Assembly (NCBI GenBank): GCA_949152475.1
Contig: OX424562.1
Span: forward strand, 26,102,209 to 26,166,208
Origin: Terebella lapidaria
Taxonomy: Eukaryota > Annelida > Polychaeta > Terebellida > Terebellidae
Reading direction: 5' to 3'
Length of the DNA stretch: 64,000 bases
Made by a program: the position numbers and the translations under genes. Below the pieces are notes generated by a model that saw nothing but the letters and a program-made list of their open reading frames with translations, had not been told where the DNA came from and ran no database searches. Below, one piece after another: positions 6,873 through 51,064 of this stretch (positions are counted from its first letter, which is position 1; each line of letters starts with the position of its first letter).

Positions 6873-6986
6873 CCTGCGCCTAGCCCCAAAAGTGGCTCTT
6901 TCAACCTGGTGATCTACATGGGTGGTTGATCAACCGCCCATATCGATCACCAGGTTGAAGAACCACTTTTGGGGCTAACCTGCGTC
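6873..6986. repeat. Near-perfect 114-bp palindrome
   Basis: Two arms of about 57 bases meet at TTGATCAA (6926-6933). TTCAACCTGGTGATC on the left is answered exactly by GATCACCAGGTTGAA on the right, the inner ATGGGTGGTTGATCAACCGCCCAT differs from its complement at one base pair, and the outer GCCCCAAAAGTGG pairs with CCACTTTTGGGGC. The right arm continues into the 216-bp tandem duplication, so the palindrome looks like an inverted copy of the edge of that repeat. Confidence 0.85.
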
Positions 6987-7394
6987 CGCCCAACCCACTC
7001 ATCCCCCCCCCCCCCCTTTCCACCCCCCTCCTACTTTTCCACGCTCTCCATCCCTGACACCCACCGTTCTGTCCCGCCATCCGGGCCGCCGTCATCAGGT
7101 CACCCGCGCTGACGGCCATGCCTCTCCCGGGCCCCGTCCGCTCCTGGATCAGCTGGTCAACGTAGTCCTTGACCGCCGCCACTTTTGGGGCTAACCTGCG
7201 TCCGCCCAACCCACTCATCCCCCCCCCCCCCCTTTCCACCCCCCTCCTACTTTTCCACGCTCTCCATCCCTGACACCCACCGTTCTGTCCCGCCATCCGG
7301 GCCGCCGTCATCAGGTCACCCGCGCTGACGGCCATGCCTCTCCCGGGCCCCGTCCGCTCCTGGATCAGCTGGTCAACGTAGTCCTTGACAGCCG
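6963..7394 (-). repeat. 216-bp tandem duplication, two copies
   Basis: Units start at 6963 and 7179. The two appear identical by eye, including a run of 14 C residues in each (7003-7016, 7219-7232). The unit is a multiple of three, so a minus-strand reading frame passes through both. It contains the end of a possible exon with its splice donor. The GC-rich composition contrasts with the AT-rich surroundings. The near-identity points to a recent duplication. Confidence 0.9.
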
Positions 7395-15520: not shown

Positions 15521-18500
15521 TTATCTGTAGCGGGCCGGTCTGCGGGCATTGCGTCTGGGTCGATTTGGTCGTGCAGGCGGGGGCGTAGCCTCGCTTGTCT
15601 CAGGGTCGGAAGATACCACAGGCTTTTGCCTGCGCGTCTTGCGTGCCGGTTTTGGAGTGTCGGAACTTGATCTGTGTGATCTTTTCCGTTGCCGATGTCG
15701 ACTTGAGCCGGATGAAGTCGGAGATCGCGATTGACGATCCGGGGTCGTTTGCGAATCAGACTCTGCTGTTTGGTCTGAATCGGTATGTCGATCTTGGACT
15801 GTTACCTCCCAAGGGTAATAGAACTCCTTGAGAAGTCCCATGGGGTCGGGTGACTGTTCTGGGTCGGACTTGCTTGACGACGACGTGGGTCGTACAGGGT
15901 CGGAGTAGATGTGGGCCGCTTGGTTGTCACCTTCGTATGGCTTGAGCACATCCAGATGAACAACACGAGTGTTCCGAGGGTTGGAAACCAGGGCGATTCG
16001 GTAATCCACCTCGGTTACACGGTCGATGATCCTCCAGGGACCAGTCCAGGGCCGAGCGAACTTATTATTCTGCGTGAGTGGCAGATAATAATACCGGACC
16101 AGTTCGCCTGGTTGAAACTGGGGTCGTGGTTTCGCGTGGGCGTCATAACCCATCTTTTGCCGAATTGCCGCTTTCTCGAGATGGTCTTGGGCGAAACCGT
16201 GGGCCGTTCTGATGGCTTGCCGCAAATACTCCACATACTCCGGACCACACGGAGGTAGAGGTTCAGGGTCGTAGGTCGGAAACATGAGGTCGACTGGCAA
16301 GTTACACTCGTGTCCATACACCATCAGATGCGGGGTGCATCCCGTGGACGAGTGTACTGAGGTTCGATAGGCCATTAACACATATGGCAAGTGCAAGTCC
16401 CAATCGTTTGCACGATCGCTGACGAACGCACTCAGCATGTTGAGCAATGTCCTGTTGAATCGCTCAACCTGGCCGTCGCTCTGGGGTCGGTATGGGGTCG
16501 TACGAATCTTCTTAGCGCCCAGTAGACGCACAACATGCCGGAACAGGGACGACTCAAACTCAGTACCTTGATCGCTATGGACCGCTTTGGGGACACCGTG
16601 GTAGACTATCCACCGATTCACCAGGGTGTCGGCAACATTTTTGGCCGTATGTCGCCGTAGCGGAAAAGCGTCAGTGTACTTCGTAAAGTAGTCCGACACG
16701 ACTAGTACATACCGATAGCCTCTTCCCGTGACCTTGTGGGTGTCGAGGATGTCCATCGCTATTCTGTCGAACGGCGCTCCTGTCGGTAGCTGTGTCAGGG
16801 GCGATCTTTTTGGGGCCGGTTTACCCTTGCGGGTCACACATTGCGGGCAGCGGGCACACCAGCGGGCGACGTCCAGCGCCAAGCCGGGCCAGTAGAATCG
16901 GCGCCTGACTCTCTCGATGGTACGCTGTATGCCGAGATGTCCGACAATCTTGAGGTCGTGTAGTTGGTGCAAAACTTGTGTCCTGAGTGCTACGGGGAGC
17001 ACGGTTTGCACCACGGGCCGTCCAGCAGGGTCGGGTTTTATATGTCGAACCAGCACACCGTCTTGTAGCGCCAGGAGGTTCCAGCGAGAAACAAGTGTCT
17101 TTACCTCCTCTCCTTGGCGGGCGACTTCTCGTGAGTCGGGCTTGGTGCCGGCTAGTATCCATTGCCGCACTTTTCCGACGCTGGGGTCGGCTTGCTGTGC
17201 CGCGACAATGTCCTGGGCCGAATAGTCCGAAAGCCACTTTTGTCCATCAAGTGTGGCGTCCAAAGCACGGACTCGAACAACTTGGCGTGCCGAAACTAGC
17301 TGGGGCAAGACCGGTGATGTTATCGAATCACTGTCCAGGAGGTCTGCCCTTGTCTGGGTCGGAACAACAGTTATCCGACGAACTGGAAGTTCTCCGGAAC
17401 TTGTTTCTGGGTCGGTCGGAGGTGTGACGAGTCGTCCGGGACAGTCTTGGTGTTTACAACTGTGGCACCGTGACAAGCCGTCGGCGTTACCGTGTAATTT
17501 TCCGGGTCGATGCTCTATCCGAAAGTCATACTGCTGTAGCTTGGCGAGCCACCTAGCGAGCATGCCGTCGGCGTCGCTGTAGTTTTTCAGCCACCTTAGC
17601 GAGCTATGGTCGGTTCGGAGGAGGAATTTCCTACCCCAGAGGTAGTGCCGATAGTGTTGCACCATCTCAACTACTGCCAGTAGTTCCCGATAGGTGGTGC
17701 AATAGTTCCGCTGGGTCCGGGACAGGGTCTTGCTGGCGAACCCGATGGGGATCTCCTTCCCGTTAACCCTTTGTGAGAGGGCTCCTCCCACAGCAAAGCC
17801 GCTTGCATCCGTATCGAGGATGAAGTAGTCCTCCGGATTCTGGGTCGGATGAGCGAGCTTGGGCGCCTTGATGAGGGCGTCGCGGAGTCGCTGGAAAGCT
17901 CGTCGCTGGGCCGGTCCCCAAGTGAAGTGGCATTCACCTCGGGTAAGCGCTACGAGAGGTTCAGCGATCTCAGCGTAGTCCTTGATGAATCGCCTGTGGT
18001 AGTTGGCGAAACCAAGGAAAGCCCTGACGTCGGTGATCTCGCACGGGGTCGGCCATTCTCTGATGGCTTTGACTTTGTTGGGGTCGACTCGGATTCCTTG
18101 GCCGCTCACTATGAACCCCAAGTACAAGATTTCCCGTTGGAACAACTCGCACTTCTTGGGCTGAAGTTTCAGGCCTGCCGATCTGATTCGATCCAGGACC
18201 GCTTCCAGGTTTGCGAGTGCCTGATCGAATGTTCTGCCGTAAGCTATCACGTCGTCGAGATAGCAAATACACCGGGTCCACAAGTAACCACGGAGTATGG
18301 TCTCCATAAGCCGTTCGAAGGTTGCCGGGGCGTTGCTAAGGCCGAATGGCATGACCTTAAACTGATAGAGTCCCTTCCTTGTGGCGAAGGCAGTCTTCGG
18401 TCTGTCGCTGGGGTCGACTTCAACCTGCCAGTAGCCAGAGGCCAGGTCTAGGGCCGAGAAGTAGTTGGCGCCTGCCAAGGCGTCATGAGTGTCCTGAATG

Positions 18501-19906
18501 TTGGGCAAGGGATACGAATCCTTGCGGGTGACGTCATTCAGGAGCCGATAGTCGACACAGAAGCGTACTTGTCCGTTCTTCTTCCGCACGAGCACTACCT
18601 GTGCGCTCCAGGGCGAATCGGACGGCTCAATACACCCCAAGCGGAGCATCTTGTCGATCTCCTCGTCGATGATGCTTTGCTGTGCCTGAGGGACGCGTCG
18701 CTGTCGTTGTCGAATTGGGGCCGAGTTGCCGGTGTCGATTCTATGCTGGACGACTTGGGTCCGTCCCAGTTGGCCGTCTGGGTGCATAAATGTGTCCTGG
18801 TATTGGTGAACCAGGTTGGCGCAACGCCGATGCTGTTCCGGCGCTAGTCCGGCGCGATCCACCATTTCTTGTAGATGTGGCGGTAGGTCGCGGTAGTGAC
18901 TGGCGTCTACCGTGGCCGAGTCGGGCTCCTCTCCGGGTCGTGGCAGGGCTCCGACGACACTTTCGACAGGGCTTGCTATGGCGACAGGGTCGGAACGGGT
19001 GAGCGTAATGCCGGTATCTGCTGGATTGACTACCGACACCTTTACGCACTGCCGATTCAGGGTCGTAAGTGTTCTCCCCATGATGAGGTCGGTTTCCTCG
19101 GGAAAGGTCGTAAGTGGCTGGACTATCCTCGGGTGTTGTCGAACTCGAACTCGGGAAGTCGGGACCAGCTCCACTATTGCTTCGCTGCGTGCGGGGACGG
19201 TGACAGCTCGTCGCACGGCCATTCTGACAACATTGGCCTCAATGTCTTTATGTGCGAACAGGATTTCTTTGTGTACCTGTATCGTCCCTTCACCGTAATT
19301 CACTACAGCGTGAGCTTGCCGAAAAAAGTTCATGCCGAGAATCATGTCGTCATGTATGTCAGCCACACAAAAGGTTACGACCATATGGTTAGTTCCGACC
19401 TGTATTGAGAGGTCGATCAGTCCATCGATCGGGCTTGACTGTCCGGTGACGTCACGAATAATAGCCGAAGTAGACCGCAAATGTCGCTGGTCAGCGGGGA
19501 CGTGACGTAGCTGATCGCGTCGGAGCAGGGAGATCTGCGCTCCGGAGTCGAGTACAGCCTTTATCGTCTTGTTTCCGACGTGTACCGGCAACTTCCAGCA
19601 TTTGTGATTGGTGGCGCTGGAGTTGTTGATGACAGCCGGAATTTCGGGGTCGTCTAGCGGTGGCCGGAAGAGTGTGTGCAGAGGCGGCAGTTTGGATTCC
19701 GGTCCACTCGGAAAAGCGTAGAATCCTCCATCGTCGGAGATCCACTCGATCTCGGACATGCTGTCCGTTCCGGTGCCGTTGGCGGTCGGGGGTGACACCC
19801 CTTCAGGACGACGGTCTCCACGTGGTGGTCGCTGTGGCCGCGGTGCGGACACCCCTTCATGAAAAGAGGCCGATTTCGGGGTCGGAGCTTGACATTTTGT
19901 ACACAC
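15521..19906 (-). CDS. pol: Pol polyprotein of the Gypsy element (PR-RT-RNaseH-IN)
   Basis: 1461 codons. Domains in order: aspartic protease with VLDSGAQISLL near residue 115; reverse transcriptase with the YLDDV catalytic motif near residue 540; RNase H with an LDTDASGFAVGG start near residue 680; integrase with an HHCC zinc domain ending CARCPQC, then the DDE core (MDILD, SDQGTEF, SDGQVERF) and a GPWR module. The C-terminal tail is Arg/Ser/Pro-rich and basic. The frame differs from that of gag upstream. The combination is diagnostic of Ty3/Gypsy pol. Confidence 0.97.
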   Translation of the reverse strand: MCTKCQAPTPKSASFHEGVSAPRPQRPPRGDRRPEGVSPPTANGTGTDSMSEIEWISDDGGFYAFPSGPESKLPPLHTLFRPPLDDPEIPAVINNSSATNHKCWKLPVHVGNKTIKAVLDSGAQISLLRRDQLRHVPADQRHLRSTSAIIRDVTGQSSPIDGLIDLSIQVGTNHMVVTFCVADIHDDMILGMNFFRQAHAVVNYGEGTIQVHKEILFAHKDIEANVVRMAVRRAVTVPARSEAIVELVPTSRVRVRQHPRIVQPLTTFPEETDLIMGRTLTTLNRQCVKVSVVNPADTGITLTRSDPVAIASPVESVVGALPRPGEEPDSATVDASHYRDLPPHLQEMVDRAGLAPEQHRRCANLVHQYQDTFMHPDGQLGRTQVVQHRIDTGNSAPIRQRQRRVPQAQQSIIDEEIDKMLRLGCIEPSDSPWSAQVVLVRKKNGQVRFCVDYRLLNDVTRKDSYPLPNIQDTHDALAGANYFSALDLASGYWQVEVDPSDRPKTAFATRKGLYQFKVMPFGLSNAPATFERLMETILRGYLWTRCICYLDDVIAYGRTFDQALANLEAVLDRIRSAGLKLQPKKCELFQREILYLGFIVSGQGIRVDPNKVKAIREWPTPCEITDVRAFLGFANYHRRFIKDYAEIAEPLVALTRGECHFTWGPAQRRAFQRLRDALIKAPKLAHPTQNPEDYFILDTDASGFAVGGALSQRVNGKEIPIGFASKTLSRTQRNYCTTYRELLAVVEMVQHYRHYLWGRKFLLRTDHSSLRWLKNYSDADGMLARWLAKLQQYDFRIEHRPGKLHGNADGLSRCHSCKHQDCPGRLVTPPTDPETSSGELPVRRITVVPTQTRADLLDSDSITSPVLPQLVSARQVVRVRALDATLDGQKWLSDYSAQDIVAAQQADPSVGKVRQWILAGTKPDSREVARQGEEVKTLVSRWNLLALQDGVLVRHIKPDPAGRPVVQTVLPVALRTQVLHQLHDLKIVGHLGIQRTIERVRRRFYWPGLALDVARWCARCPQCVTRKGKPAPKRSPLTQLPTGAPFDRIAMDILDTHKVTGRGYRYVLVVSDYFTKYTDAFPLRRHTAKNVADTLVNRWIVYHGVPKAVHSDQGTEFESSLFRHVVRLLGAKKIRTTPYRPQSDGQVERFNRTLLNMLSAFVSDRANDWDLHLPYVLMAYRTSVHSSTGCTPHLMVYGHECNLPVDLMFPTYDPEPLPPCGPEYVEYLRQAIRTAHGFAQDHLEKAAIRQKMGYDAHAKPRPQFQPGELVRYYYLPLTQNNKFARPWTGPWRIIDRVTEVDYRIALVSNPRNTRVVHLDVLKPYEGDNQAAHIYSDPVRPTSSSSKSDPEQSPDPMGLLKEFYYPWEVTVQDRHTDSDQTAESDSQTTPDRQSRSPTSSGSSRHRQRKRSHRSSSDTPKPARKTRRQKPVVSSDPETSEATPPPARPNRPRRNARRPARYR

Positions 19907-20052
19907 CCCTTCGAGGAGTTGAGGTGTGGGCTGGGCCGGCTGCGGGGTCGTTATTGGTGTCGTTACCGGTACAGTAGTCGTGACAACCGCAGATGTGGAG
20001 CGGGGAACGTTGTCCTGTTGTCTGGAAGGTCCTTGCTCCTCAGCACCTTCCC

Positions 20053-22632
20053 CTACTGGTTTGACGACGGGGTCGGAGGTGTTGGTGGGGCCGGTTTGGT
20101 TTGGTTACCGGTTTGGTTAGGTACTGACAACACTTGAGCTGTCCTTCTGTCAGTACCGGGACCATTGGGCCGAAATGCTAGCGGTTTCATGCCGTTACGT
20201 ACTAGCACATCCTTAAGCCGAAAGCACCGCATCCAGCGATGGCCGGGCTTCTTGCAAAAGAAGCAAACCATGGGTCGTCCGGGTTGCGGGGGTCGATCAC
20301 CTTTCATCGGGGCCGTTGTTCGTAGGACAGAGAAGATAGCCGTTTCCTCGCACAGTCCATTCTCGTCACTAAGGACGCACTGGAAGGCTTCAGCCACCCA
20401 CTCGCGTGAGCTGGTTGGCACTGAGTGTTCGTCGCAACCTTGTAGGCCGGTAGTGTCACTGTCCGCGGGGTCGTAGTAGGCCGCAATTTGCTCTGGGGTT
20501 AGTGTTTCCCCCTGAGTGACTTGTCCCATGGCACAGGACAGTTCCTCATTGACAGGGTCGTCTTCCGCGTATCCGCTTGCGGAAATGTCAGCACGTCGTG
20601 TGCCTCGATGTCGATCTCTGGCTGTCCTCTGTTGACGACTCTCTACCTTGAGAACGGCCGTAAGTGCCTCACTGTAACTGTTAAAAGTGAGGGCACACAG
20701 TTTATCGGCAATGGGGTCGGGTTGGCCGTTCACGAATTGCGCAATTACAGTTCGTTGCCGCGACGTTGGCGTAACGTCATCGAACACTTGCTCCGCCAGG
20801 GCCTGGAGTCGCTCCATGTAGTGTTCCGCGTCCTCTTTTCGTTCCCGCTTGAGGAACGGGAAATCGTCCCGTTTGGACTGTCGACGGGGCTCGGGTTCCC
20901 AGCCCTCTAGGAGTTGGCGACGGAACTCTCCCCAGGGAGTTGCGACCGGGATATTTAGAGCTAGCGCTTCAGCGCGGCCGCGTAGCGTGCTCCGGAAGGT
21001 CGTCGTCTTGTTGAGGTCGGAGTAAGTGAAGGCCGCAGCGAATTGTTCGAAACTCCGAACGTATTGAGTGAGATTGCCCTCCTTAAAGGTCGCACGCCAT
21101 TGAGCCATTTTAGCCGTAGCCAACGTTTGGGGCTCAGACGTGAGTCTCTGTGGCGTGGGCGTGTCAACACTCACCGCAACTGGTGTAGTCGCTGTAGTGG
21201 CCGTCGGAGTCGGAACAGCCGAAGTCGCCGGAGCCGTCGTATCTGGGCCGATCGGGGTCGCGTTAGCGGGGGCGGTCGGTGCTGTCGTCGCGGAGACGGC
21301 GAGCGATGCGGCGGGTGGTGCCGTCGTGTGGCTGGGGTCGTGTGGTGCTTGTGCAGCGGGGGCCGGTTGACTGTATGGAGGCGTCACCCATGGTATCCCG
21401 ACTGAGGGTGGGAATACAGCCGGTGGTGGATATCGGTATACCGATCCATCCGGGCATACACCATGGTACACTAATCCGGGTTGTGTACCATGATAGCCGG
21501 TGTCAGCGATCACGCTGGGAACGCCACCATATCCAGGCGGTGGGTTCGCGTAGCCGACATGCGGTGAATAGTATCCGACAGCTACTCCATTTGGAACACC
21601 GCTTGTTGCGCCAGGGTATCCGACTGGCGGTACACCATATCCGTTGGTGTTTCCGACTGATTGTGAGATCGGAGGTCCGATCATTTGCACAACACTTTCT
21701 GCCGGAGCAGACACAACTTGATCTTGCGACGGATCGAAGCGCGGTTGTTCTCCGGTAGTCGGCGATGGTCGGTGCGTAGTCGGCGCGGGAGCGCGTGTGT
21801 CGGAAGTCGGCGTGTCGGGGTCGCAGGGTCGGCGACTTGATGTCGAGGGTGCTTGTCGGGGTCGCGCTTGTCGCATGGTGGCGCGAGGTTCCGCCATTGT
21901 GTCGCTGGGTCGTTGTTGTCGTAGCGGTGTCGCGATCCGGGTAGCGGTCGTCATCAGGATGTCTTCGGATGTCGCTCCCGTCTGGCTGGGTCGTGTGTAC
22001 TCTACCACCGTAGGCTCGGTCGGTATGCGTGAGTACATTTCTGGCGCGGGGCCGTGTTGTCTCGGCGTCATGGACGGCGCCAGGGGTCGATTGGCCGAAT
22101 AAGCGTTCGGCGGGGTCGATTCCGGAACATTGTCAGACTGACAAACCCACTGTCGTATCCGAGAGTTACTTGGTGGGTGCGTAACCATTGACGTGTCTAT
22201 GGTTACCGGCCGAACGTCCACTGCTAATTGTTCTGGGTCGATATCACAATCTACGCTCGCTCTTTGACGTGAGCGCGTATAGTTTCTGTCGGCAAAGTCA
22301 CTTTTCTGGGTCGCTCTAGCGGGCGTGGCCGAGTACGCTCTAGCGTGTGCACGCAGAATGTCACTTACTGTATGTGACGGCGCGAGCGGGTCTTCGTCTA
22401 GGAACTCCTGCACCAGGTCGGTAGGCGGCGAAAACGATCTCAGGGACGAATGGTCGCCAATGGAGTCGAAAAGGCCGGACGGTTGTTGCTCCTGCGACAG
22501 TGGAACTGTATCGCTCATGGCAACTGAGCGAGGGCCGGAAGGTCGGAAGGCCGGATTCGGATTGATCGTCACTTCATCATCCGTAGGGTCGAGTGGCTCA
22601 CCGCGGGAGGCTCCCGGGGCCAATGCCATCAA
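20053..22632 (-). CDS. gag: Gag protein of the Gypsy element
   Basis: 859 codons, beginning 62 bases inside the 5' LTR boundary. The first 500 or so residues are disordered: Pro/Thr/Ser/Ala-rich with a Gly/Tyr/Pro segment (GYPGATSG, PPGYGG). A helical capsid-like region follows (from about residue 510, KMAQWRATFKEG onward). Near the C-terminus one CCHC zinc knuckle reads CFFCKKPGHRWMRC. The very long disordered N-terminus is unusual for this family. Confidence 0.93.
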   Translation of the reverse strand: MMALAPGASRGEPLDPTDDEVTINPNPAFRPSGPRSVAMSDTVPLSQEQQPSGLFDSIGDHSSLRSFSPPTDLVQEFLDEDPLAPSHTVSDILRAHARAYSATPARATQKSDFADRNYTRSRQRASVDCDIDPEQLAVDVRPVTIDTSMVTHPPSNSRIRQWVCQSDNVPESTPPNAYSANRPLAPSMTPRQHGPAPEMYSRIPTEPTVVEYTRPSQTGATSEDILMTTATRIATPLRQQRPSDTMAEPRATMRQARPRQAPSTSSRRPCDPDTPTSDTRAPAPTTHRPSPTTGEQPRFDPSQDQVVSAPAESVVQMIGPPISQSVGNTNGYGVPPVGYPGATSGVPNGVAVGYYSPHVGYANPPPGYGGVPSVIADTGYHGTQPGLVYHGVCPDGSVYRYPPPAVFPPSVGIPWVTPPYSQPAPAAQAPHDPSHTTAPPAASLAVSATTAPTAPANATPIGPDTTAPATSAVPTPTATTATTPVAVSVDTPTPQRLTSEPQTLATAKMAQWRATFKEGNLTQYVRSFEQFAAAFTYSDLNKTTTFRSTLRGRAEALALNIPVATPWGEFRRQLLEGWEPEPRRQSKRDDFPFLKRERKEDAEHYMERLQALAEQVFDDVTPTSRQRTVIAQFVNGQPDPIADKLCALTFNSYSEALTAVLKVESRQQRTARDRHRGTRRADISASGYAEDDPVNEELSCAMGQVTQGETLTPEQIAAYYDPADSDTTGLQGCDEHSVPTSSREWVAEAFQCVLSDENGLCEETAIFSVLRTTAPMKGDRPPQPGRPMVCFFCKKPGHRWMRCFRLKDVLVRNGMKPLAFRPNGPGTDRRTAQVLSVPNQTGNQTKPAPPTPPTPSSNQ

Positions 22633-22673
22633 TGCCGGTCAGGTCTGGGTCGATAATCCGAGACTAGCTCAGA

Positions 22674-27469: not shown

Positions 27470-27693
27470 TCCGACGGCGGATTACCAATCTAGAAGCGAA
27501 GTTCGATAGTCCTGACAAAATTGTTTCAGATTCGCTACATCGAATGCTCCATCGTCAACACGCCTCATGAGCGCAAACATACAACATGACGACATATTGC
27601 AAAAACTATTCGAACTGGATTAAATGGACATTATTGTTTTGAATAGATATCAATTGAAATAAAAGGTGGATCTATCTCACTCGACATACCAAG

Positions 27694-28914
27694 ATGCCGC
27701 ACAAAACAGACAAGAAAAAATCCCACGGGCACAAGAAAAAGACTCGACCGAAGTCCCCAAAGCGCCGGAAGTCAAGTCCGAGCCGGAAACGGGGATCCCT
27801 GAAACAGCTTGAAGATTATCGCAACGTCGCGGTTCCAGATATCACACTCTACAAACCGAACTCAGAGGATACCGAAAGCGAAGACACAGTTGTGCTGGAT
27901 GCAACAAAAATCGTGTCGCCCGAATCATACAAGGAATTCGCGAGAACCTCACTAAAATCACAATACGACAAAACTCGACACGAGTCTCAACATCTTAAGC
28001 AGCGACTTCAGCGTCAGATCTCAGGCGATAAAGTTTTCAAGTTAGATGACGCTCAGATGATTGGGAAAACCCCGTGGAATAGCGAAGCTGGGAGTGACAA
28101 GTTCGATTCCGGGTGTGACTCCAGACAAGTGTCGGAAGTTGATGACTGGCTCGATTCCGACTTCCCAACTAATGATAGCATCCTCATGGAGAAACCTGAA
28201 TCCGGTAGTCGTGATTCGCTGTTGGGTCCTCAGTCAGATGAAGTGGACGATTTATCAAACAATTTCAGCTCGGAGGCCATATCACTCTCGGACCAAGGAA
28301 GCGAGTGTGACTCAGATGGAACGCTATTGGCTGAACAGTCGGATGACGTCATCAGCCAGACGTCAAGTGAGGCTTGGAGGGAGAGGATCCCTTTCGAGCA
28401 AGGTCGAACTGAGTCAAAGTCTTTTTCAAAAGGTGCCGAAGAAGAGTCAGTGACAAAACATGAAGTTCAACATCAGTCACAGAACAGACACAAGTTATCA
28501 GTTGTGATAACGAACTACTCGGGTAACGTGATTTCCGAGAACGCACGAGATATTTCGTGGCCTGGCGACGATGAACGTGCAAAAATTGAGCAAACGTCAG
28601 TCAGCCAAAACTCAGAAGGACTTACAGTCCAGACATCTGAACGTCCTTACCACAACGTTTCAAACTCACCACTGTCTTATACCACCGAGTCAAATGCATC
28701 AACCACTCTGTCGGAAAGCAAAGGGCGATCCCAACCCACAAGGAAGAGGTGTCAGTCGGCCAAAGAAAGAATAAACGTGGATCTGGTGAGGCAGACAGAG
28801 CGCCTGCTACATAATAAGAAGTATCTACAGAGATGGGGCGTCCCGTCCATGGATGATGAGCAATTCAGTGACCTCTTCGTCATTAACTCCATAAGAGATG
28901 CTCTCCACAGTTCG
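27694..28914 (+). CDS. First coding exon of a disordered basic/acidic protein
   Basis: ATG at 27694. The exon gives 407 codons and ends at the donor TCG/GTGAGT in phase 0. The N-terminus (residues 1-40) is a dense Lys/Arg/Ser tract like a nuclear or microtubule-binding signal. Residues 70-115 are helical (ESYKEFARTSLKSQYDK). Residues 130-260 are Ser/Asp/Glu-rich. The last 50 residues are ordered (VDLVRQTERLLHNKKYLQRW, then DEQFSDLFVINSIRDAL). It probably splices to the exon near 31293, which begins in phase 0. The reading frame is long and compositionally consistent, so the exon is well supported, but the family is unknown to me. Confidence 0.75.
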
Positions 28915-31292
28915 GTGAGTAAAAGTTGCCAATTGTGATGACGTTGGTAAATTATAATAATTTTATGTCAATGTAGTTTTTGAGTCTATCGTTGATATAA
29001 GAGTGTATGGGTTTCAACAGCGAAACTAGAATGGGAAAATGGCTTTGGGTAGAAACTGAAACAAAATGATGATAGTATGTAAGTTTTGAATAATAAATAG
29101 CAACACCTACAAGTTTATACATGATATTCCCCTTCAATCAATCATTGATCCCAAATCAATTTTTTTTCAGACTACGTAGACTGTTGCTCTTCTATTATAT
29201 GTACATGAAATGTTTCTAAGTTGATACATGCGAGGTGAACAGGAGAATGGTTACGTGAATATTCATTCATATTTTGCCAAAATTTACATTGAAATGCAAA
29301 CCTTCAATATTTCACTGATTGTATATAAATACAAATGAGACTGGCCATTAACAATCAGTATTGGAGTGTTAATGTACAATAGCAAAATCCTACACCTAGG
29401 ATTTTTTTCTCATCTCGACATATCAAGTAATGACACATTTATATCCGTGTATAGAATGGTATTTCGACCCCATGGCATTGAAGTTACCATCTCTTCCCAA
29501 ATCAAAAATATATATATATACGTTAAGTTCCGTTGATGGAGTTTTTTTTTTCTGACCTAATGAATATTTTAGAGATCCAAAAAATATTATAAAATAAATA
29601 ATATATGACTGCCAGAGTGTGAAACAGATACACCAACGGTACCTTTATGAATAAAACATTTTTTTGCAAAAACGTTTTGGTTTTTTTTTTATCACACCAT
29701 GTGTCCGATGTGATCCTGTGTGGGTAAAATTGCATCTCTATTCATAATGTTAAGAAAATTATGGACATACACTATGAATAACATGTTCATATAGTTACTT
29801 GCCAATTTTATTACCCCCTGGTGGGGATACAATCGAACCAGTTCATTTGTTGTTTTTGTGTAATATAAATATACTTATTACACTTAGCTTAGCTACAGTC
29901 AAAGTCTGTATCACAAACAGTACTCATAGTTGTAAGAACGACTGGGGACACAGTCTCTGTGCCAGGGTTTGGTTGTGTCGGCCAGTTCCTAAGTGTGAGA
30001 CTATTGATCACACAGTCGATATTTGATATTAGCGGCCATGACCAAAAGACGGTGAAAAGGTGTATTATACAGACGCAATGAATGCTGGACAGATACAAAC
30101 CAGCAGTCGAGCTTTGTTATTCGCATTCTGGGGTGCCATTCATAGATCTTCAGTGTAACCAACGAAGAGGATTTCTTTTGAAAGAACGTTCAAAGACATT
30201 GTACTGGGTATTGTTTGTGTGGCTTTTCGCTCAAGTTGAACGGGTTCTTCAACACTCACCGCTATTATTGTACTTTTAATGTATGCGGAGCACGCTAATG
30301 GCCTGAGAGTCTTCATGAAATTTGCTGGATAAATACGTTTTTGAATTGGCATTATTTGATAGCTGACTCGGAATCGATGCCGCATCAAACATTAGAAAGA
30401 GATTGCTGGAGAAGACCCGTTTAGAGCCATCCTACGGACCCAACTAAATGTTAATGTTCGTCTTTTCTTCATGAAAATATGGCTGGAACTATCTAAGAGC
30501 CATTGGAAATCGTGAAATTCCGTCTGCAGGTGATTTTTGTCGTGAAAATAATCAGGGAGGCGACATCGATCATGTTGGAAAAATTTGGATTTGCAATTCC
30601 ACTACAGACATCGTGAAACATTCCGAGAAACAGACGGACTGTTGTGTATTCACTATTCAGTAATAACAGCATCGGTCTCCCGGTGTTGAAAGGAGCTCTC
30701 AGCTATTGAAGTATAGTTCTCCGTTAATTTGACACTGAAACCATTGATCACTTACTGGTTTATTGATGTTACATTCGGTCCAAGGGTCAATAGAGCCGCT
30801 TGTCTCGGTCAAATGACTTGGCCACTTGTTATATCGACCCAGTGGTCTCTCTTTGTGCCCTCCTGAGGCGATTCATAATTACATGTTACATTTCAAGTGA
30901 TGTCATTAGTTGTTTGTGCATGAAGCCCTTTACATCGTATTAAATAGTGGCTCCAAGCTACTTTACAGGGAATTCATTGCCAAGTGGTAGTGTTTAAAAC
31001 ACAGGATGTTCCGGTTGTTATGCTTGTTTCGGCCCAACTCGGTGTGTATTTCACGGGTAGCTGTGAAAAAAATTGACGATGTGTGGAACTTGCTGAATAT
31101 ATGACCTATTGGAACTTCCAAGGACACTGAACAGCTGAAAAGGTTCTACTAGTATTCGAAGCCCATTGCAGAGGAGGCAATATATGGTGGTTATTTCTTT
31201 ATGCTGGATGATGAAGGGTGTGTCGTCGTGCACCTTTTGTGTACAGTGAAAATAAAACGATTGACAAAAATTGGAGAGGCTAGGAATATCAG
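28915..31292 (+). other. Probable intron, 2.4 kb
   Basis: AT-rich, with short T- and A-runs and no supported exon. It lies between a strong donor at 28915 and the next long open frame. Confidence 0.5.
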
Positions 31293-31301
31293 AAGAGCAA
31301 A

Positions 31302-31977
31302 ATGTCGTTTCCGCGGGCTTTTCCAAAGAGGAAAAAGCGACTCTTTCTGTCGAAGTCTCCGTACTTCGAAGTTGTGATTGAACCCGAAGTCGAGGATTCT
31401 GATGCACATGTACAGGAAACCCAGCCCGATACAGAGAAGTCGATTATCGAGTCAAGATCTGAGGCCGATACTGGTATCTCAACACCCGTGAAATGTTCCA
31501 CACAAATATTGGTATTGAATTGTCCCAAAAATCCACCAATTGCGTCATCTGGAAATCAACCTTATGACCTACAGCAGTTCAAATATGTGACTCTCGCCAA
31601 AACGGTGGATTCTATTCACAATCTATCACATGATCTCGGACATAGTGAAGATATTATTAGTGTATCTAATACTTGTAATATTCCCGAACTTGAATGTATG
31701 AGTGAATCGGGATTAACAATTTCACACGAAGATCTAGGAGACTCGCTAAATATTGCTTCTTGTACGAACGAAACGTCACGAAACGAGAAAGTGGTGACAG
31801 ATCCTGGACAGCTCGGTGTACAGAGTAACAATGAAAGGAACTTTAATTTTACTGACAGCAACATTGACCAATCAGAAAACAGATCTGTAAGTGACGTCAT
31901 TGTCATTCCACAGGCCCAACAGCGAGATGTTCCGGAACCTGCGGTGTTCAAAACTGTTCCCATGGCAACCAGCTACG
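31302..31977 (+). CDS. Exon of the same or an adjoining gene; acidic linker region
   Basis: The open frame starts at an ATG (31302) that could be an alternative start. If spliced from 28914, a weak acceptor at 31292 (ATATCAG/AAG) or one at 31316 (TTTTCCAAAG/AGG) keeps phase 0. The exon reads RKKRLFLSKSPYFEVVIEPE and then a Ser/Asp/Asn-rich acidic stretch. It ends AGCTACG/GTAGG at 31977 in phase 1, which matches the next exon at 33605. Family not recognised. Whether this is an internal exon or the first exon of a shorter transcript is open. Confidence 0.6.
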
Positions 31978-33604
31978 GTAGGATTCTCAATACTAATATT
32001 TTGCTATGGAGCGTTTATCGCTTCTAAATATGTGTTAAATTATATAAATTCTATCAACGTTGTATCATTGTAATTAATGTTTGTTTGATGGCACTTTCAA
32101 TGTTTTGTTTCATTTTTTAATGTACTCGATAAGCTAACTTTGAGCAAATGGGTAGACAATGAAGCTATAATGATACATTTTCAACGAACCTTGTATACTG
32201 GCTACCAGATAATAGATCTGAAAGTTGTGCTATTGATCAGAGTTGTACATTCAGTGCAACAAAGTGCAACCCAGACAATGTGGAACGTAATAGTATATTG
32301 TCTAGTCTTAGGCTACACACCGTCTATAGAGAGAATATTGATGACTGAATTTGCTCGCAGATGTTGTGCAAATAACGAAATATCCCTGTACAAATATCAA
32401 TTGGTAGCACGTCAGTAGATGTAGGTCTATCTAGAATTTGAACATTTATTATCCATGACATATATATCTATCATATATAATTACATAATGTCATACTTTT
32501 GCAATAGCAGCACACGGAATTCGAACCCGGGTTGAAAAACACCAAAATATATGGAAATAGGTGCCAGATGGAGATGACAATTTTCCGTTACAACATTCAG
32601 TAGTTAGGTTAATCTTTGTGACTCACGATCTTTAATACCGTGTTGTGTCACGTCTCTCCACCTGGCGATTGACCGTGCAATTACCGCTTGCCATCTGGCG
32701 ACTTTTGGGGGAGACATGAGTGAGACACTTAATTCCCTCGGGGGATGCTTGCCTCTTGCTGGAGTCATTGACTGCTCTGCCCAATCAATGCAATAGCATC
32801 ACCCCTCGTCCGCACCCCCCCCCGCTCCCCCCCCCCCCCCCCGCCGTCATTGCCCCGGTCGTATTAGCTATGACCGAGATCGGTGCCACGGTTAATACAA
32901 TAGCCGCCATGTCTGGCACAACCGGGGCATCCCTGGATCGATAGAGATTCCAATTTGGGACAGTAAGCTCTGGTGAAGGCTATTGAAGCAATCGCTGCTT
33001 GGTGCACGTTACGTTATGTTGAGCGAGCGAACCAACCAATTGGACAAAGCTGTTCCAGTGTTTTATTCCCCTGCAGCAACAGCAGCAGCAGTAGTGGTTA
33101 AGCAATAAGCATCCGCTGTGGATCGATAAGGTGCAAAACTAACACAGACGTCCTGGATTTCGATTGTCTGTAGTGGAGTTGTATTGGTCGGCGGCGGCAG
33201 ACATTTCACTGACACTGAGAAGGTGACATTATAAGGCCGCAGTGGCGTGTTCGGCGGCTAATGAATATGATAATGAGGGAGCAAAAAGAGGACAACCGAT
33301 GAAAAATTTGCTACGTCGTCTTGGGCGGATACTTAACGGTCTTGAGTAGTCGACAACATCGGTAGTCGTGGTGGGGTTGTTATTGCTGTTGGCCTTTGGT
33401 GTGCTCTGAGCAATATGGCGGAGACTGGATATTGACATATTACACTTCGGGCATTGCATTTGATGGATTAGCGTGGATATTTATTGTGTGGCACGTGACA
33501 ATTTACGTGATATCATGTCTTCGATAGTGGGATAATGCAGTGAATCAAATTGAAAGGTGAGTGTCAAAAGTGTGTTGATGTTTTTGCATGATTTTCGTTT
33601 TCAG
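31978..33604 (+). other. Probable intron, 1.6 kb
   Basis: It includes a C-rich tract around 32812-32842 and a short CAG repeat near 33073. Short open frames at 32720 and 33229 have no support. Confidence 0.5.
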
Positions 33605-34115
33605 ATGTGGACTCCGAACACGCCTACATCATGGCCAAGGCCTTGCGGGCTTACAGGGAGCATGTACACGGGCCGAGCGACCCGGCCAGAGACGTGGGCA
33701 CTCTCCGCATGGGCAGCCCTCTACCGTCACAGACTAAACCCTCCGACCCACCCAAAAATATCCCTGTCGTTGAACTGTCAAGCCACACCCTGGGCGACAT
33801 GACACCGGCCAGTGCACAGAGACCGAACCGTCCCCGGGCACAGAGTGCACGGCCATCTTACCAAAGCCCCACGGTGTCGCACCAAATGCATACGAACAGT
33901 ATTGATGTCAATATTCACCCTGAGCGGGTCGCGCAGACCCCTCACTCTCGGCCCATGTCAAGTCACGGTGCCCCCTCCCTAAGACGCCCTAGAGGCCTGT
34001 CCCATACCCCCTCCGCCCCTTCTACCCCCACACCCCCTGCATCAAGGTCAAAGGTCACGGGTCATACCGGCCTCGTGCGTGATGTCGACCGGTCCAATGG
34101 ATTAGAATCCTGCAA
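33605..34115 (+). CDS. Internal exon with SARP and IHPE motifs
   Basis: The acceptor TTCGTTTTCAG/ATGTGG at 33604 and phase 1 join it to 31977, giving DVDSEHAYIMAKALRAYREH at the start: a short helical segment. The rest is Pro/Ser/Arg-rich with RPRAQSARPSYQS and VNIHPERVAQ. The latter resembles the IHPEWVSE found in both downstream last exons. The donor TGCAA/GTAGGT at 34115 leaves phase 2, which fits both of those exons. Confidence 0.75.
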
Positions 34116-34474
34116 GTAGGTCTGAAACATAACAACGTCGATAGATAGTGTAACCTCATCCAACAATGTGTGTCATATATAACAAATGTCACGTGCTGTG
34201 GCCACAAGACCGCAGAGTTGTGGTCGTGAAAGACGATACAATAAAAACCATTGTTGATGAGTGGAGAAAACCTTTATGCACTAGTCTGTAACTTGACAAG
34301 TGCTGCTAAACAACAAGTAGCACATTCTGTGTCTGGTGTTAAATAGCCATACAATACTTCTCAATTTCAACATTTACTCGGTGCAAAGCAATATGCACGC
34401 AATATGTACATGAACATGTCAATCCTGTATCAATATTGAAGGTAAGTCACACCTTTGACGTACGTATGTTGCAG

Positions 34475-40440: not shown

Positions 40441-40487
40441 CAGGGGTATGTAAGCCAGCCCAAGGAAGTGTATAGCTGCTAAGGAGG

Positions 40488-43400
40488 GTAGTTGACTCAC
40501 GCCAGGAGGCCTAAGTATTGGAGTTGACCCATGCCTAAGGAGGCCTAAGGTGGGGAGGTGACCCATGCCTAAGGAGGCCTAAGGCGTGGAGGTGACCCAT
40601 GCCTAAGGAGGCCTAAGGTGGGGAGGTGACCCATGCCTAAGGAGGCCTAAGGAGGGGAGGTGACACATGCCTAAGGAGGCCTAAGGTGGGGGTGAACAAT
40701 GCTTAAGGAGGCCTAAGGCGGGGAGGTGACCCATGCCTAAGGAGGCCTAAGGTGGGGAGGTGACCCATGCCTAAGGAGGCCTAAGGTGGGGACGTGACCC
40801 ATGCCTAAGGAGGCCTAAGGTGGGGAGGTGACCCAAGCCTAAGGAGGCCTAAGGCGTGGAGGTGACCCATGCCTAAGGAGGCCTAAGGCGTGGAGGTGAC
40901 ACATGCCTAAGGAGGCCTAAGGTGGGGAGGTGACCCATGCCTAAGGAGGCCTAAGGTGGGGAGGTGACCCATGCCTAAGGAGGCCTAAGGTGGGGAGGTG
41001 ACCCATGCCTAAGGAGGCCTAAGGAGGGGAGGTGACACATGCCTAAGGAGGCCTAAGGGGGGGGGTGACCAATGCTTAAGGAGGCCTAAGGTGGGGAGGT
41101 GACCCATGCCCAAGGAGGCCTAAGGTGGGGAGGTGACCCATGCCTAAGGAGGCCTAAGGTGTGGAGGTGACCCATGCCTAAGGAGGCCTAAGGTGGGGAG
41201 GTGACCCATGCCTGAGGAGGCCTAAGGAGGGGAGGTGACACATGCCTAAGGAGGCCTAAGGTGGGGAGGTGACCCATGCCTATGGAGGCCTAAGGTGGGG
41301 AGGTGACCCATGCCTAAGGAGGCCTAAGGCGTGGAGGTGACCCATGCCTAAGGAGGCCTAAGGTGGGGACGTGACCCATGCCTAAGGAGGCCTAAGGTGG
41401 GGAGGTGACCCATGCCTAAGGAGGCCTAAGGTGGAGAGGTGACCCATGCCTAAGGAGGCCTAACGCGTGGAGGTGACCCATGCCTAAGGAGGCCTAAGGT
41501 GGGGTGGTGACCCATGCCTAAAGAGGCCTAAGGTGGGGAGGTGACCCATGCCTAAGGAGGCCTAAGGAGGGGAGGTGACACATGCCTAAGGAGGCCTAAG
41601 GTGGGGGTGACCAATGCTTAAGGAGGCCTAAGGTGGGGAGGTGACCCATGCCTAAGGAGGCCTAAGGTGGGAAGGTGACCCATGCCTAAGGAGGCCTAAG
41701 GTGGGGACGTGACCCATGCCTAAGGAGGCCTAAGGTGGGGAGGTGACCCATGCCTAAGGAGGCCTAAGGCGTGGAGGTGACCCATGCCTAAGGAGGCCTA
41801 AGTTGGGGAGGTGACCCATGCCTAAGGAGGCCTAAGGCGTGGAAGTGACCCATGCCTAAGGAGGCCTAAGGTGGGGAGGTGACCCATGCCTAAGGAGGCC
41901 TAAGGTGGGGAGGTGACCCATGCCTAAGGAGGCCTAAGGTCTGGAGGTGACCCATGCCTAAGGAGGCCTAAGGAGGGGAGGTGACACATGCCTAAGGAGG
42001 CCTAAGGTGGGGGTGACCAATGCTTAAGGAGGCCTAAGGTGGGAAGGTGACCCATGCCTAAGGAGGCCTAAGGTGGGGAGGTGACCCATGCCTAAGGAGG
42101 CCTAAGGTGGGGAGGTGACCCATGCCTAAAGAGGCCTAAGGTGGGGAGGTGACCCATGCCTAAGGAGGCCTGAGGCATGGAGGTGACCCATGCCTAAGGA
42201 GGCCTAAGGTGGGGAGGTGACCCATGCCTAAGGAGGCCTAAGGAGGGGAGGTGACACATGCCTAAGGAGGCCTAAGATGGGGGTGACCAACGCTTAAGGA
42301 GGCCTAAGGTGGGGAGGTGACCCATGCCTAAGGGGGCCTAAGGTGGAGAGGTGACCCATGCCTAAGGAGGCCTAAGGAGGGGAGGTGACACATGCCTAAG
42401 GAGGCCTAAGGTGGGGGTGAACAATGCTTATCGAGGCCTAAGGTGGGGAGGTGACCCATGCCTAAGGAGGCCTAAGGTGGGGACGTGACCCATGCCTAAG
42501 GAGGCCTAAGGTGGGGAGGTGACCCATGCCTAAGGAGGCCTAAGGCGTGGAGGTGACCCATGCCTAAGGAGGCCTAAGTTGGGGAGGTGACCCATGCCTA
42601 AGGAGGCCTTGGGCGTGGAAGTGACCCATGCCCAAGGAGGCCTAAGGTGGGGAGGTGACCCATGCCTAAGGAGGCCTAAGGTGGGGAGGTGACCCATGCC
42701 TAAGGAGGCCTAAGGTGGGGAGGTGACCCATGCCTAAGGAGGCCTAAGGTGGGGAGGTGACCCATGCCCAAGGAGGCCTAAGGAGGGGAGGTGACACATG
42801 CCTAAGGAGGCCTAAGGTGGGGGTGACCAATGCTTAAGGAGGCCTAAGGTGGGGAGGTGACCCATGCCTAAGGAGGCCTAAGGTGGGGAGGTGACCCATG
42901 CCTAAGGAGGCCTAAGGTGGGGAGGTGACCCATGCCTAAGGAGGCCTAAGGCGTGGAGGTGACCCATGCCTAAGGAGGCCTAATGTGGGGAGGTGACCCA
43001 TGCCTAAGGAGGCCTAAGGAGGGGAGGTGACCCATGCCTAAGGAGGCCTAAGGTGGGGAGGTGACCCATGACTAAGGAGGCCTAAGGTGGGGAGGTGACC
43101 CATGCCTAAGGAGGCCTAAGGAGGGGAGGTGACACATGCCTAAGGAGGCCTAAGGTGGGGAGGTGACCCATGCCTAAGGAGGCCTAAGGTGGGGAGGTGA
43201 CCCATGCCTAAGGAGGCCTAATGCGTGGAGGTGACCCATGCCTAAGGGGGCCTAAGGTGGGGAGGTGACCCATGCCTAAGGAGGCCTAAGGTGGGGAGGT
43301 GACCCATGCCTAAGGAGGCCTAAGGTGGGGAGGTGACCCATGCCTAAGGAGGCCTAAGGAGGGGAGGTGGCACATGCCTAAGGAGGCCTAAGGTGGGGGG

Positions 43401-43612
43401 TGACCAATGCTTAAGGAGGCCTAAGGTGGGGAGGTGACCCATGCCTAAGAAGGCCGAGGTGGGGAGGTGACCCATGCCTAAGGAGGCCTAAGGTGGGGAC
43501 GTGACCCAGGCCTAAGCAGGCCTAAGGTGGGAACGTGACCCATGCCTAAGGAGGCTTAAGATGGATAGGTGACCCATGCCTCAGGAGGCCTAAGGACAGG
43601 AGGTGACCCATG
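40488..43612 (+). repeat. Minisatellite, 34-bp unit, about 90 copies
   Basis: The unit reads CCTAAGGTGGGGAGGTGA followed by CCCATGCCTAAGGAGG. Each unit holds two CCTAAGG words around an AGG. Variants are not random: a GACACATG unit followed by a short GACCAATGCTTAAGG unit recurs about nine times, and the variants GGACGTG, AAGTTGGGG and GCGTGGAAGTG recur in the same order near 41700-41840 and 42480-42610, showing block duplications of roughly 400 bp. Confidence 0.97.
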
Positions 43613-43800
43613 CGTATACGGATGCGTAAGGAGGTGACCAATATGTAAGCCGGCATAAGGATTGGCATTGGTATGTATGACCTGAAAGGTGGGAAGATCG
43701 GCACTTCAAGCACGTAAATGGATATAGACATACGTTAATACATGCCTAGACAAGCAGATTTAATGATCCTAGACTCTTGGGTGCATCTGATATTATGAAA
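43613..43800 (+). repeat. Module copy 2
   Basis: Diverged copy of the module at 40230, with GATTTAATGATCCTAGAC intact near 43757. It borders the right end of the minisatellite. Confidence 0.7.
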
Positions 43801-48500: not shown

Positions 48501-49020
48501 ATAGATATGAGGAAAAATAACACAAGAAATTGAAGAATATGTTCTGAATGTCTTTAAATTTAAATGCCCGCCAAAGAAACCAAAAATTTTCCAAAATAAA
48601 AAGAGGTTTATAGTGGAAAGTTTACAGGAAAATCCATTTAGCTACACAAGATAACTATGCTAGACGGGCGATGGACTGAAGCCAGTCGGATAGACGACAA
48701 GCCACGACAATGGTTGGTGAGACGGTAGGTTCGTAAAGGGGAATTACGCAGCCCGTGCTTTACCTCGGCAAAGCAACTTATGTCAATGTAGTTAGTTTTC
48801 AGTCTGGACTGGCTCTCAGAGATTGCCCCACGTGGTGTCGCGCATCGGTGACTAGAGGCCAAGAGGAAGTGATACCTCAATATAAAAATACATTTATCTC
48901 ATTTTTTTCTATTCCATTATCCAATAAAACCCCCCTTGGGTATGCGATTTATTTAATGGCAGTCTTTTCATTACTACCGTATACCAGACATTCCAACTTG
49001 TCAACGGTATGGAGAGTGTT
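45556..49020. other. Spacer rich in AAGGTCA dispersed repeats
   Basis: At about 45990, 46125, 46460, 47400, 47555 and 48205 the words TCAAGGTCAC or close variants are followed 30-60 bases later by CATAATACAAAC-like text. These are diverged copies of one family also seen at 51.95-52.48 kb. No gene is supported. Confidence 0.5.
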
Positions 49021-49021
49021 A

Positions 49022-49029
49022 TATATAAA
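49022..49029 (+). promoter_or_regulatory. TATA box of the IL-17-like gene
   Basis: TATATAAA lies 161 bases before the start codon triplet at 49190, so the leader would be about 130 bases. Confidence 0.55.
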
Positions 49030-49189
49030 AGATACGTAACTTACTCGTGTGGTAGTTGCATGAAGCGTTCGACACAGTGTCAGCGTCGATACTGAAAGCA
49101 ATAGTTGGTCGCCGAAATCATTGTCGAATCTTCGAATAACTAAATACCTGTGATATCAACATTGAATGTGCATACAATATATTTGAAAT

Positions 49190-51005
49190 ATGGTAAGTAG
49201 GCTACTGTCTGGCAATTATGTTGGTCGTGTTATTGTTGTTTAAGTTGCTAATGTAAATGTCCAGCAGTTAGGTTCATTGGCGGAATCTTTTACTGTGTTT
49301 GACTTTATTTCATTAGTACACGATGTAATATGAAGAGACGAACTTCTTCCCCCCCCCCCCCCCCCCCCCTTTGCAGACACTCCAGGTATCCCTGCTGCTG
49401 CTGGTCGCGTCTCTCCTTCTAGCTGCCGACGTCCAAGCGGGTGTTCTGCCGGTCGCGGGCACACACGGCGGCCGCGCCCGGTCCACAACCCCATCTCCCG
49501 AGCTTCCGACTCCCTGCGCGCTCCCGCGGGACCTCTCGACCCTGGTGGCCAACCACGCCGTTGGCTCCATGCACGCCGACGTCGGCCGTGTCAACGCCAC
49601 TTGTGAAGGCGGGTGCATAATGGAAACCACGCCGAACCCCGGGGGCAGTGGGGAAAGTAGCGATGGAGAGGACCCCGCATGGCCGAGCAAGGAAGGAGGT
49701 AGGCTAGCCGCCCCTGATCCACTGATGTGGGTAGTGCCGGCCGTGTATGAATATGATTATGCAGATCAAGTATCGGATCTTGACGTTGCTGTACACAACC
49801 TGGAGACTGTTGGGCCGTCCGACACAGCCAAGGTGAGCTCAACACAACAAACGTCGACAAAACAACTCTCCACTTCACAGCAAACGTCGACAGAACAACT
49901 CTCCACTTCACAGCCAACGTCGACAGAACAAATCTCCACTTCACAGCAAACGTCGACAAAACAACTCCCCACTTCGCAACAAACGTCGACAGAACAACTC
50001 TCCACTTCACAGCAAACGTCGACAGAACAGCTCTCCACTTCACAGCGAACGTCGACAAAACAACTCTCCAGTTCACAGCAAATGTCGACAGAACAACTCT
50101 CCGCATCACAACAAACGTCGACAGAACAACTCTCCACTTCACAACAAATGTCGATAAATGATCGCGTGAGTACCACTAATCCGTTGAATCCATATTATAC
50201 AAGTGTATCTTCCTCAAGCGGTTATTCTACCGGTGCCAGTACCACTGAGATCCTCCCCCAGGCGCCTTCAGAGACAGACACCCGAGGTTCGAACGTTGAT
50301 TACGCTGGAGACGCCGATATTGAACACATCTCGAGTGTCATCACCACGGACACAAACACCGCTGCGGCTACAGAACTTGATGGTACGACGAATCCAGAAG
50401 GCGTCATACAAGCAACGGAAACAACAGAAGAAGAGAGAACTCGTACTGAGGAGCCACATACAACCGTATCATACGTACCAATTGTGAGTACTGGTCGCAA
50501 ATCGGCATCTCGTTTCGATTTCGAAGTCCTTAGGAACCCAGAGCAGAAATTCTTATCTCGACTGTCCTCCACGTTACAGGACCCGCCGTCGAAAATCGAA
50601 AACGAAAGCAACGATCACCTGCCCGAAGAGTTGAAAGCAATTCTTGAAAATCCCCACTTGAACGAGGAATATGACACGGAGCCCACTTTCGGGAGTCAAT
50701 CCTGGGAGGACTTTCACTCGCCCGTCATGCAACCCGACTCGGCGTGCCCGTGGAAATACGACCAAGATACCGTCCCGTCCCGCTACCCGGCCACTCTACT
50801 GAAGGCTTATTGCGTGAGTGAGGGGCCCAAGTTTCTAGGCGACAGCGACATGGATGTGGGGTGCGAGCTCGTGTACCGCGCGGTCCCGGTGCTGCTTCTC
50901 TCGAGCGGCGAGTGCGATCCGGTCACGGGGGACGCACGGTACGTGAGGCATGAGGAACGCGTCCCCGTCGGGTGCACGGCTGCTGTGCGTCGCGTGTCTG
51001 ACTGA
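49190..51005 (+). CDS. Secreted mucin-like protein with C-terminal IL-17-type domain
   Basis: Model join(49190..49192, 49377..51005), 543 aa. The first coding exon is just ATG, ending at ATG/GTAAGT. Exon 2 follows a C21-TTTGCAG acceptor and gives MTLQVSLLLLVASLLLAADV, a clear signal peptide cleaved near VQA. Residues about 150-262 are nine copies of an 11-residue repeat, TSTEQLSTSQQ, likely O-glycosylated. From Cys458 the protein reads CPWKYDQD-RYP-LLKAYC, then GCELVYRAVPVLL, GEC and EERVPVGCTA. This is the IL-17 pattern: an N-terminal C-P-W, R-P, A-x-C, V-P-V region and a closing VGCT. IL-17 proteins are secreted dimeric cytokines acting through SEFIR-domain receptors. The final Cys-x-Cys pair of many family members is VGCTA here. 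The family call comes from motif memory, not a search. Confidence 0.75.
49349..49369 (+). repeat. Poly(C)21 forming a splice-acceptor pyrimidine tract
   Basis: Twenty-one C residues followed by TTTGCAG and exon 2 of the IL-17-like gene. Confidence 0.9.
49846..50160 (+). repeat. 33-bp coding minisatellite, nine copies
   Basis: The unit ACGTCGACAGAACAACTCTC plus CACTTCACAGCAA encodes TSTEQLSTSQQ. Copies differ by single bases, mostly Glu/Lys at position 4. The minus-strand open frames here are shadows of the repeat. Confidence 0.95.
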
Positions 51006-51058
51006 GGAGCATGGTGTGTGATAGAATATTAGTTGTAGTTTATATTTATGATTATACA

Positions 51059-51064
51059 ATAAAT
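51059..51064 (+). terminator. Poly(A) signal of the IL-17-like gene
   Basis: AATAAA, 54 bases after the stop codon. Confidence 0.7.

Follow-up and report, generated by a model that had tools for sequence, protein, structure and literature searches.

A C-terminal IL-17 domain on a long Ser/Thr/Gln-rich extension: a putative secreted protein of the annelid Terebella lapidaria

A single gene at 49190..51005 in a 64,000-nucleotide stretch of Terebella lapidaria DNA (hereafter the window) raises the question of what kind of protein carries an IL-17 domain behind a long, partly repetitive extension, namely a signaling ligand, a drifting duplicate, a ligand with an optional stalk or a structural secretion. 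We consider it somewhat probable, on the evidence of the sequence, that the locus encodes a secreted annelid IL-17-family ligand with a long Ser/Thr/Gln-rich extension. The coordinates and the product of 543 residues had been proposed in a sequence-only reading of this DNA, and both proved right when the ATG, the splice sites and the stop were read directly. The features of the gene, in window coordinates, are as follows:

49020..49030, + strand: candidate promoter, TATA-box-like tatatataaaa (by reading)
49190..49192, + strand: start codon; exon 1 is Met only (ATG, then GTAAGT directly)
49193..49376, + strand: intron 1, with a C homopolymer run inside (acceptor ...TTTGCAG ends at 49376)
49377..51005, + strand: exon 2, residues 2-543 and stop (open frame)
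49377..49439, + strand: putative signal peptide, residues 2-22, hydrophobic run with VQA/G site (inspection, -3/-1 rule)
49440..49853, + strand: N-terminal region with Cys48, Cys77 and Cys81 (translation; paralog module not detected)
49854..50150, + strand: nine 33-nt / 11-aa repeats, consensus STEQLSTSQQT, residues 161-259 (TRF, translation)
50151..50654, + strand: non-repetitive stalk, Ser/Thr/acidic, then charged linker to the domain (coding signal in part)
49833..50579, + strand: possible optional intron, 747 nt = 249 codons, removal of which would give a 294-aa stalkless protein (splice scores)
50742..50996, + strand: IL-17 domain, CPW to near the C-terminus, with Cys 458, 480, 497, 514 and 534 (homology)
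51058..51063, + strand: polyadenylation signal aataaa (by reading)

The 543 residues arise when the ATG-only exon 1 is joined to the exon 2 frame, whose 542 codons stayed open in none of 2000 dinucleotide shuffles. Intron 1 scores 5.9 bits at its donor and 10.0 bits at its acceptor, and sites scoring as high occur at 0.17 (donor) and 0.02 (acceptor) per kb of the window, as measured with a matrix that was not trained on T. lapidaria. Signal peptide cleavage sites follow the -3/-1 rule, by which the hydrophobic run at the start of exon 2 would be cut at VQA/G, and we infer that the protein is secreted. A first exon that encodes Met only may seem odd, yet it is paralleled in sea urchin IL17 genes, in which exon 1 encodes one or two residues (PMC5457136).

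That the C-terminus holds an IL-17-type domain, as the sequence-only reading had it, was borne out by a profile search, in which Pfam PF06083 (IL17) matched the 542-aa translation of exon 2 over residues 455-536 (46.3 bits, E 5.9e-12; cut-off 24 bits). The domain alone (last 116 residues) matched the PDB weakly (best E 0.21), and 15 of the 15 listed matches were IL-17A or IL-17F; a profile built from the window domain and nine same-genome paralogs reached IL-17A at 3.5e-10, IL-17F at 2.8e-9 and IL-25 at 5.7e-9, the next family in the same search being PTTH (E 0.004). With a profile built from 11 same-genome paralogs alone, the window domain reached 52.4 bits, compared with 8.6 bits for the highest-scoring of 5000 shuffled versions of residues 441-543. 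The motifs CPW, RYP, GCE..Y, PVL and VGC are kept in alignment with the paralogs, CPW/SPW being an IL-17 motif (PMC8353272). A protein search with residues 440-542 matched none of 34 candidates and found no orthologue from another species, and a protein search with the paralog profile gave two overlapping matches (P0002 and P0003), both of which also have VGCTQ instead of VGCxC. AlphaFold, run once with three sequences and once with a single sequence, returned pLDDT values of 36 and 39 and pTM values of 0.20 and 0.26, too low for the models to inform on the fold. The assignment of the IL-17 domain, judged from the sequence comparisons, is firm and close to certain.

Invertebrate IL-17s have four core cysteines and two more at positions that are Ser in chordates (PMC4517768, PMC8353272). 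The window domain has core cysteines II and V as well as I and IV, the cysteines of the invertebrate third disulfide (C458 and C497, by sequence and alignment), and is without III and VI, defined as the positions that align with 'LGC' of IL-17A and with the last C of its 'VGCTC', and also without the middle cysteine of C.C..C. At the 11 distinct other loci of the genome, III and CxC are present in every case (11/11) and the middle cysteine of C.C..C in ten (10/11), so that the III/VI pair is missing at only one of 12 distinct IL-17 loci, the window locus (the CPW of paralog L048 lies in its upstream frame). In human IL-17F, III pairs with VI. Both halves of one predicted knot disulfide are lost here, with I/IV and II/V kept, whereas vertebrate IL-17 has Ser at I and IV and keeps III and VI, the window domain being its complement. 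With its odd count of five cysteines, the domain cannot pair all of them internally, and C514 (of 'GEC') is the spare one. The full cystine knot foreseen from the sequence alone is not encoded, as the III/VI pair is missing. Loss of III and VI marks a variant rather than exclusion from the IL-17 family, because published members also vary: sea urchin IL17 subfamilies 3 and 9 are without the two C-terminal conserved cysteines (PMC5457136), and mussel IL-17 isoforms 18 and 21 have four conserved cysteines (PMC8353272).

The genome searched (761.6 Mb, 438 contigs) has 14 places that match the Pfam IL17 model, 13 of them over the cut-off, including the window locus; L016, whose domain letters equal those of L015, and L022, which is below the cut-off, were left out of the comparison, giving the 11 distinct others (L048 and L049 are the wider regions around L013 and L015). 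SEFIR domains were found at three loci. A start could be read in seven precursors, which measure 162 to 277 residues from the first Met used, and most paralogs carry a module, C..(E/D)L...H.S(F/Y), between signal and CPW, which leave-one-out runs recovered in seven of the seven paralogs tested (0-1 of 1000 shuffles as good) and which is not evident in the short L011 and L020. The identical domain letters of L015 and L016 (C1:59964460 and C1:60014069) lie 50 kb apart and could reflect a recent duplication or an assembly artefact, and at L050 (C17:11349500-11354500; the same as L017) module and domain are in different frames, suggesting a possible pseudogene or a small intron.

In the domain tree, the window domain groups with L048 (support 96/89) on the longest branch of the 12 (3.98 changes per column), although only one of the nine inner branches of this 12-row tree is starred and the program warns on the placement of long rows. 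The nearest paralog (C1:60746643-60751428; L013/L048, L054) is 43% identical to the window domain over 69 columns, has an intron just before RYP and, unlike the window domain, keeps the C.C..C and CxC cysteines. A compact frame upstream of it, presumed to belong to the same gene, has the module (by eye) and CPW. Neither of the two exons seen holds a stalk, which makes an origin of the stalk on the window branch probable.

Insertion of the stalk inside a conserved two-part IL-17, with CALPRDLSTLVANH... as the counterpart of the paralog N-terminal module, was tested and is not supported. A 7-paralog profile scored on the window N-terminal region was equalled or bettered by 2447 of 5000 shuffles, and the summed pairwise scores of this region against the seven paralogs by 211 of 1000, the lowest single pair of the seven being L010, nominally low at 19 of 1000. 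Compared with the nearest paralog at two gap costs, residues 23-156 were matched by 198 and 339 of 2000 shuffles and residues 40-100 by 76 and 128 of 2000; an eight-paralog profile either gave no match or, with residues 40-100, was equalled by 554 of 2000 shuffles. For the segment just before the domain, the sum over the paralogs was reached in 256 of 1000 shuffles (lowest single pair L018, 45 of 1000), and the N-terminal region alone had no match in the PDB up to E 10.

The count of nine repeats made earlier agrees with the nine complete 11-residue units found here, which have a mean pairwise identity of 0.90 (TRF: 9.5 copies, 89% matches). The repeats do not adjoin the IL-17 domain, the gap between them being ~200 residues. 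Their stretch is Ser/Thr/Gln-rich and nearly proline-free (S+T 50%, P 2%, with S+T at 25.6% in the whole protein) and makes up ~18% of the protein, so that the label 'mucin-like' is only partly justified. Mucins are defined by at least four Ser/Thr-rich tandem repeats, and there are nine units here; they are further defined by proline in the repeats, which is nearly absent here, and by repeats that span one third or more of the protein, which these do not. In a scheme published for Drosophila, a protein whose repeats lack proline or span less than one third of it counts as 'mucin-related' (PMC2515642), and the window protein falls into that class. It had also been suggested that the stalk could hold the cytokine until cleaved, but residues 1-456, before the IL-17 domain, contain neither an R-X-[KR]-R nor an RXXR motif; paralogs L009 and L010 have the furin-type R-X-[KR]-R motif. 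Because a furin site is absent, the extension probably stays attached.

The somewhat probable reading of the locus as a secreted ligand would work as follows. The C-terminal IL-17 domain would dimerise, probably through the spare 'GEC' cysteine or the N-terminal ones, and would signal through SEFIR receptors, while the long, Ser/Thr/Gln-rich extension that takes the place of the paralog N-terminal module is probably disordered and probably O-glycosylated. The stalk could retain the ligand within mucus or matrix, or space it from a surface; the receptor-binding core would be displayed on a long flexible arm, and this arm could simply enlarge the ligand. Against the ligand reading, the longest branch and the lost disulfide pair leave reduced function or decay possible.

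Such decay would make the gene a drifting IL-17 duplicate whose role as a ligand is fading while its knot decays and its simple repeat expands, and which by now serves as a decoy or is nearly functionless; we regard this as rather unlikely. Drift would account for the branch length, for the three conserved cysteines lost and for the changes among the repeat units, which fall on the three codon positions as 6, 5 and 6 and comprise 11 nonsynonymous and 5 synonymous codon changes, close to the 74:25 of random change. The repeat units thus show no purifying selection, from which it follows that length and composition, and not exact sequence, seem to matter, or that nothing does; the unit of 33 nt is a multiple of three, so a change in copy number would keep the frame. 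However, the reading frame is open over 542 codons, GC at third positions is 0.77 over 50655-51002, the core IL-17 motifs are kept, and the TATA-like box, splice sites and polyadenylation signal are all in place, which speaks against drift.

Within the stalk, the unique part at 50158-50579 stayed open in 6 of 2000 shuffles, and its period-3 signal was reached by none of 500. The stalk is accordingly taken as probable coding sequence, and a constitutive intron in its place is disfavored by the same openness and periodicity of the unique part. An optional stalk, in the form of an in-frame exitron by which the gene makes both the 543-aa stalked protein and a compact 294-aa IL-17, is distinctly unlikely. 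The donor of this exitron, AAG/GTGAGC, is the best-scoring one in exon 2 (7.4 bits, 0.06 per kb), its 747 nt are divisible by three with both ends between codons, and the spliced 294-aa product would come near the longest paralog (277 aa from the first Met in frame). The exitron has a weak acceptor, however (3.9 bits, with 0.67 sites per kb scoring as high), the splice scores come from a matrix that is not species-trained, and the unique part of the segment behaves as coding by the shuffle figures just given.

The closest DNA to the stalk repeat elsewhere in the genome belongs to an array of 33-nt units on contig C12 (C12:3034000-3053800; L046, L047), where all seven non-self DNA matches fall (68-71% identity, best E 5.2e-9). 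The array fills the 20 kb read, has open stretches of at most 996 codons, cut by stops in three forward frames, and its forward-frame peptides are unlike the stalk. Array and stalk unit share the period of 33, and the C12 consensus agrees with the unit in 22 of 33 positions, most of which fall within a single block of 20 bases. No base shuffle out of 20,000 did as well, and with 3-base blocks shuffled 31 of 20,000 did, figures that are uncorrected for the choice of the C12 array as the best of the whole genome. A pattern written to fit both cores, with one mismatch allowed, had 435 forward matches and none in the reversed control, and among the matches listed only the window gene and C12 occur. 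To dismiss the C12 match as chance would thus go too far, and the stalk is possibly descended from satellite DNA read in frame. At the peptide level, the 117 weak matches listed (E of 10 or less, the gene itself counted) involve only the stalk portion of the query, and they look like low-complexity Ser/Thr/Gln sequence.

Gel-forming mucins have a cystine-knot domain at the end, after a Ser/Thr-rich stretch. By convergence with them, the IL-17 knot could be the C-terminal dimerisation unit of a structural secretion, such as a mucus or tube protein, which is very unlikely. The order of a stalk and then a C-terminal knot-type domain would fit this, as would the odd number of domain cysteines, the Ser/Thr/Gln repeats, the absence of a cleavage motif and the long branch, but the protein is short, its repeats cover only ~18% of the length, and IL-17 motifs beyond the cysteines are kept. 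Hardly probable, too, is the full course of events in which a duplicated IL-17 left signaling, lost a knot disulfide, gained a glycosylated (perhaps satellite-derived) arm and turned into a secretion with a structural or adhesive role in mucus or tube.

Several other features of the window and the genome were recorded. Ty3-like LTR-type retroelement frames lie at window 11276-22638 (- strand), where a single frame of 1527 aa covers protease, reverse transcriptase, RNase H and integrase; Pfam matched neither of two more long frames next to it. A satellite-like array at window 40479-43613 consists of a 34-bp unit in ~93 copies (91% matches), and a 216-bp unit is tandem-duplicated at 6963-7394 (99% matches) inside a minus-strand open frame. 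Long open frames at 3655-4569 (- strand) and 27658-34119 (+ strand), some of them Ser/Pro-rich, have no Pfam match and are possible exons. The mitochondrial contig of 15,973 bases has long frames that are open with TGA as Trp, COX1 as identified by Pfam, two trnM genes side by side and 22 tRNAs listed by ARAGORN; its gene order, with genes other than COX1 named from their frames, reads as the common annelid order. Among terebellids, Loimia is reported to have two adjacent trnM genes and Neoamphitrite also to have two, and the contig thus points to a terebelliform annelid. A second COX1-like sequence at C417:44633-46450, in two pieces with an internal TGA and off the mitochondrial contig, is either a nuclear copy or another organism's mitochondrion.

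Known IL-17 proteins had been described as small in the sequence-only reading, which does not agree with published members of 344-537 residues, including an annelid one of 366: lengths of 366 and 348 residues are given for C. teleta and of 434 and 470 for amphioxus (PMC4517768, Table 1), and the sea urchin IL-17s of 344, 379 and 537 residues include multi-domain members, the longest of these having three IL-17 domains (PMC4517768). The window protein shares the C-terminal IL-17 domain and the CPW motif with invertebrate IL-17s (PF06083; PMC8353272), and its domain is linked to human IL-17A/F and IL-25 by profile matches of 3.5e-10 to 5.7e-9. In Capitella teleta 198235 (366 aa), a signal peptide and a long N-terminal region are encoded by a gene with one intron (PMC4517768); the window protein, by comparison, has 543 aa, a single domain, a tandem Ser/Thr/Gln repeat and no III/VI cysteines. 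In the sea urchin, SpIL17-1 has its IL-17 domain in the second exon, as in the window gene, whereas the first part of section 7 of the same source mentions no repeat stalk for SpIL17 (PMC5457136). Mucins and mucin-related proteins resemble the stalk in their Ser/Thr-rich tandem repeats of ~ten residues, from which it departs in the near absence of proline (2%) and the share of the protein that the repeats take up (~18%) (PMC2515642).

A tandem-repeat stalk on an IL-17 was not found among the titles and abstract starts listed in searches of open-licence PMC papers, and in a 2022 review the function of annelid IL-17 is unassigned (PMC9756803). Long IL-17 precursors are already known, and what differs here is the tandem-repeat stalk together with the loss of III and VI; with a pre-domain stretch of more than 430 residues and a cysteine core trimmed opposite to that of vertebrates, the protein offers a natural test of the roles of this region and of the individual disulfides.
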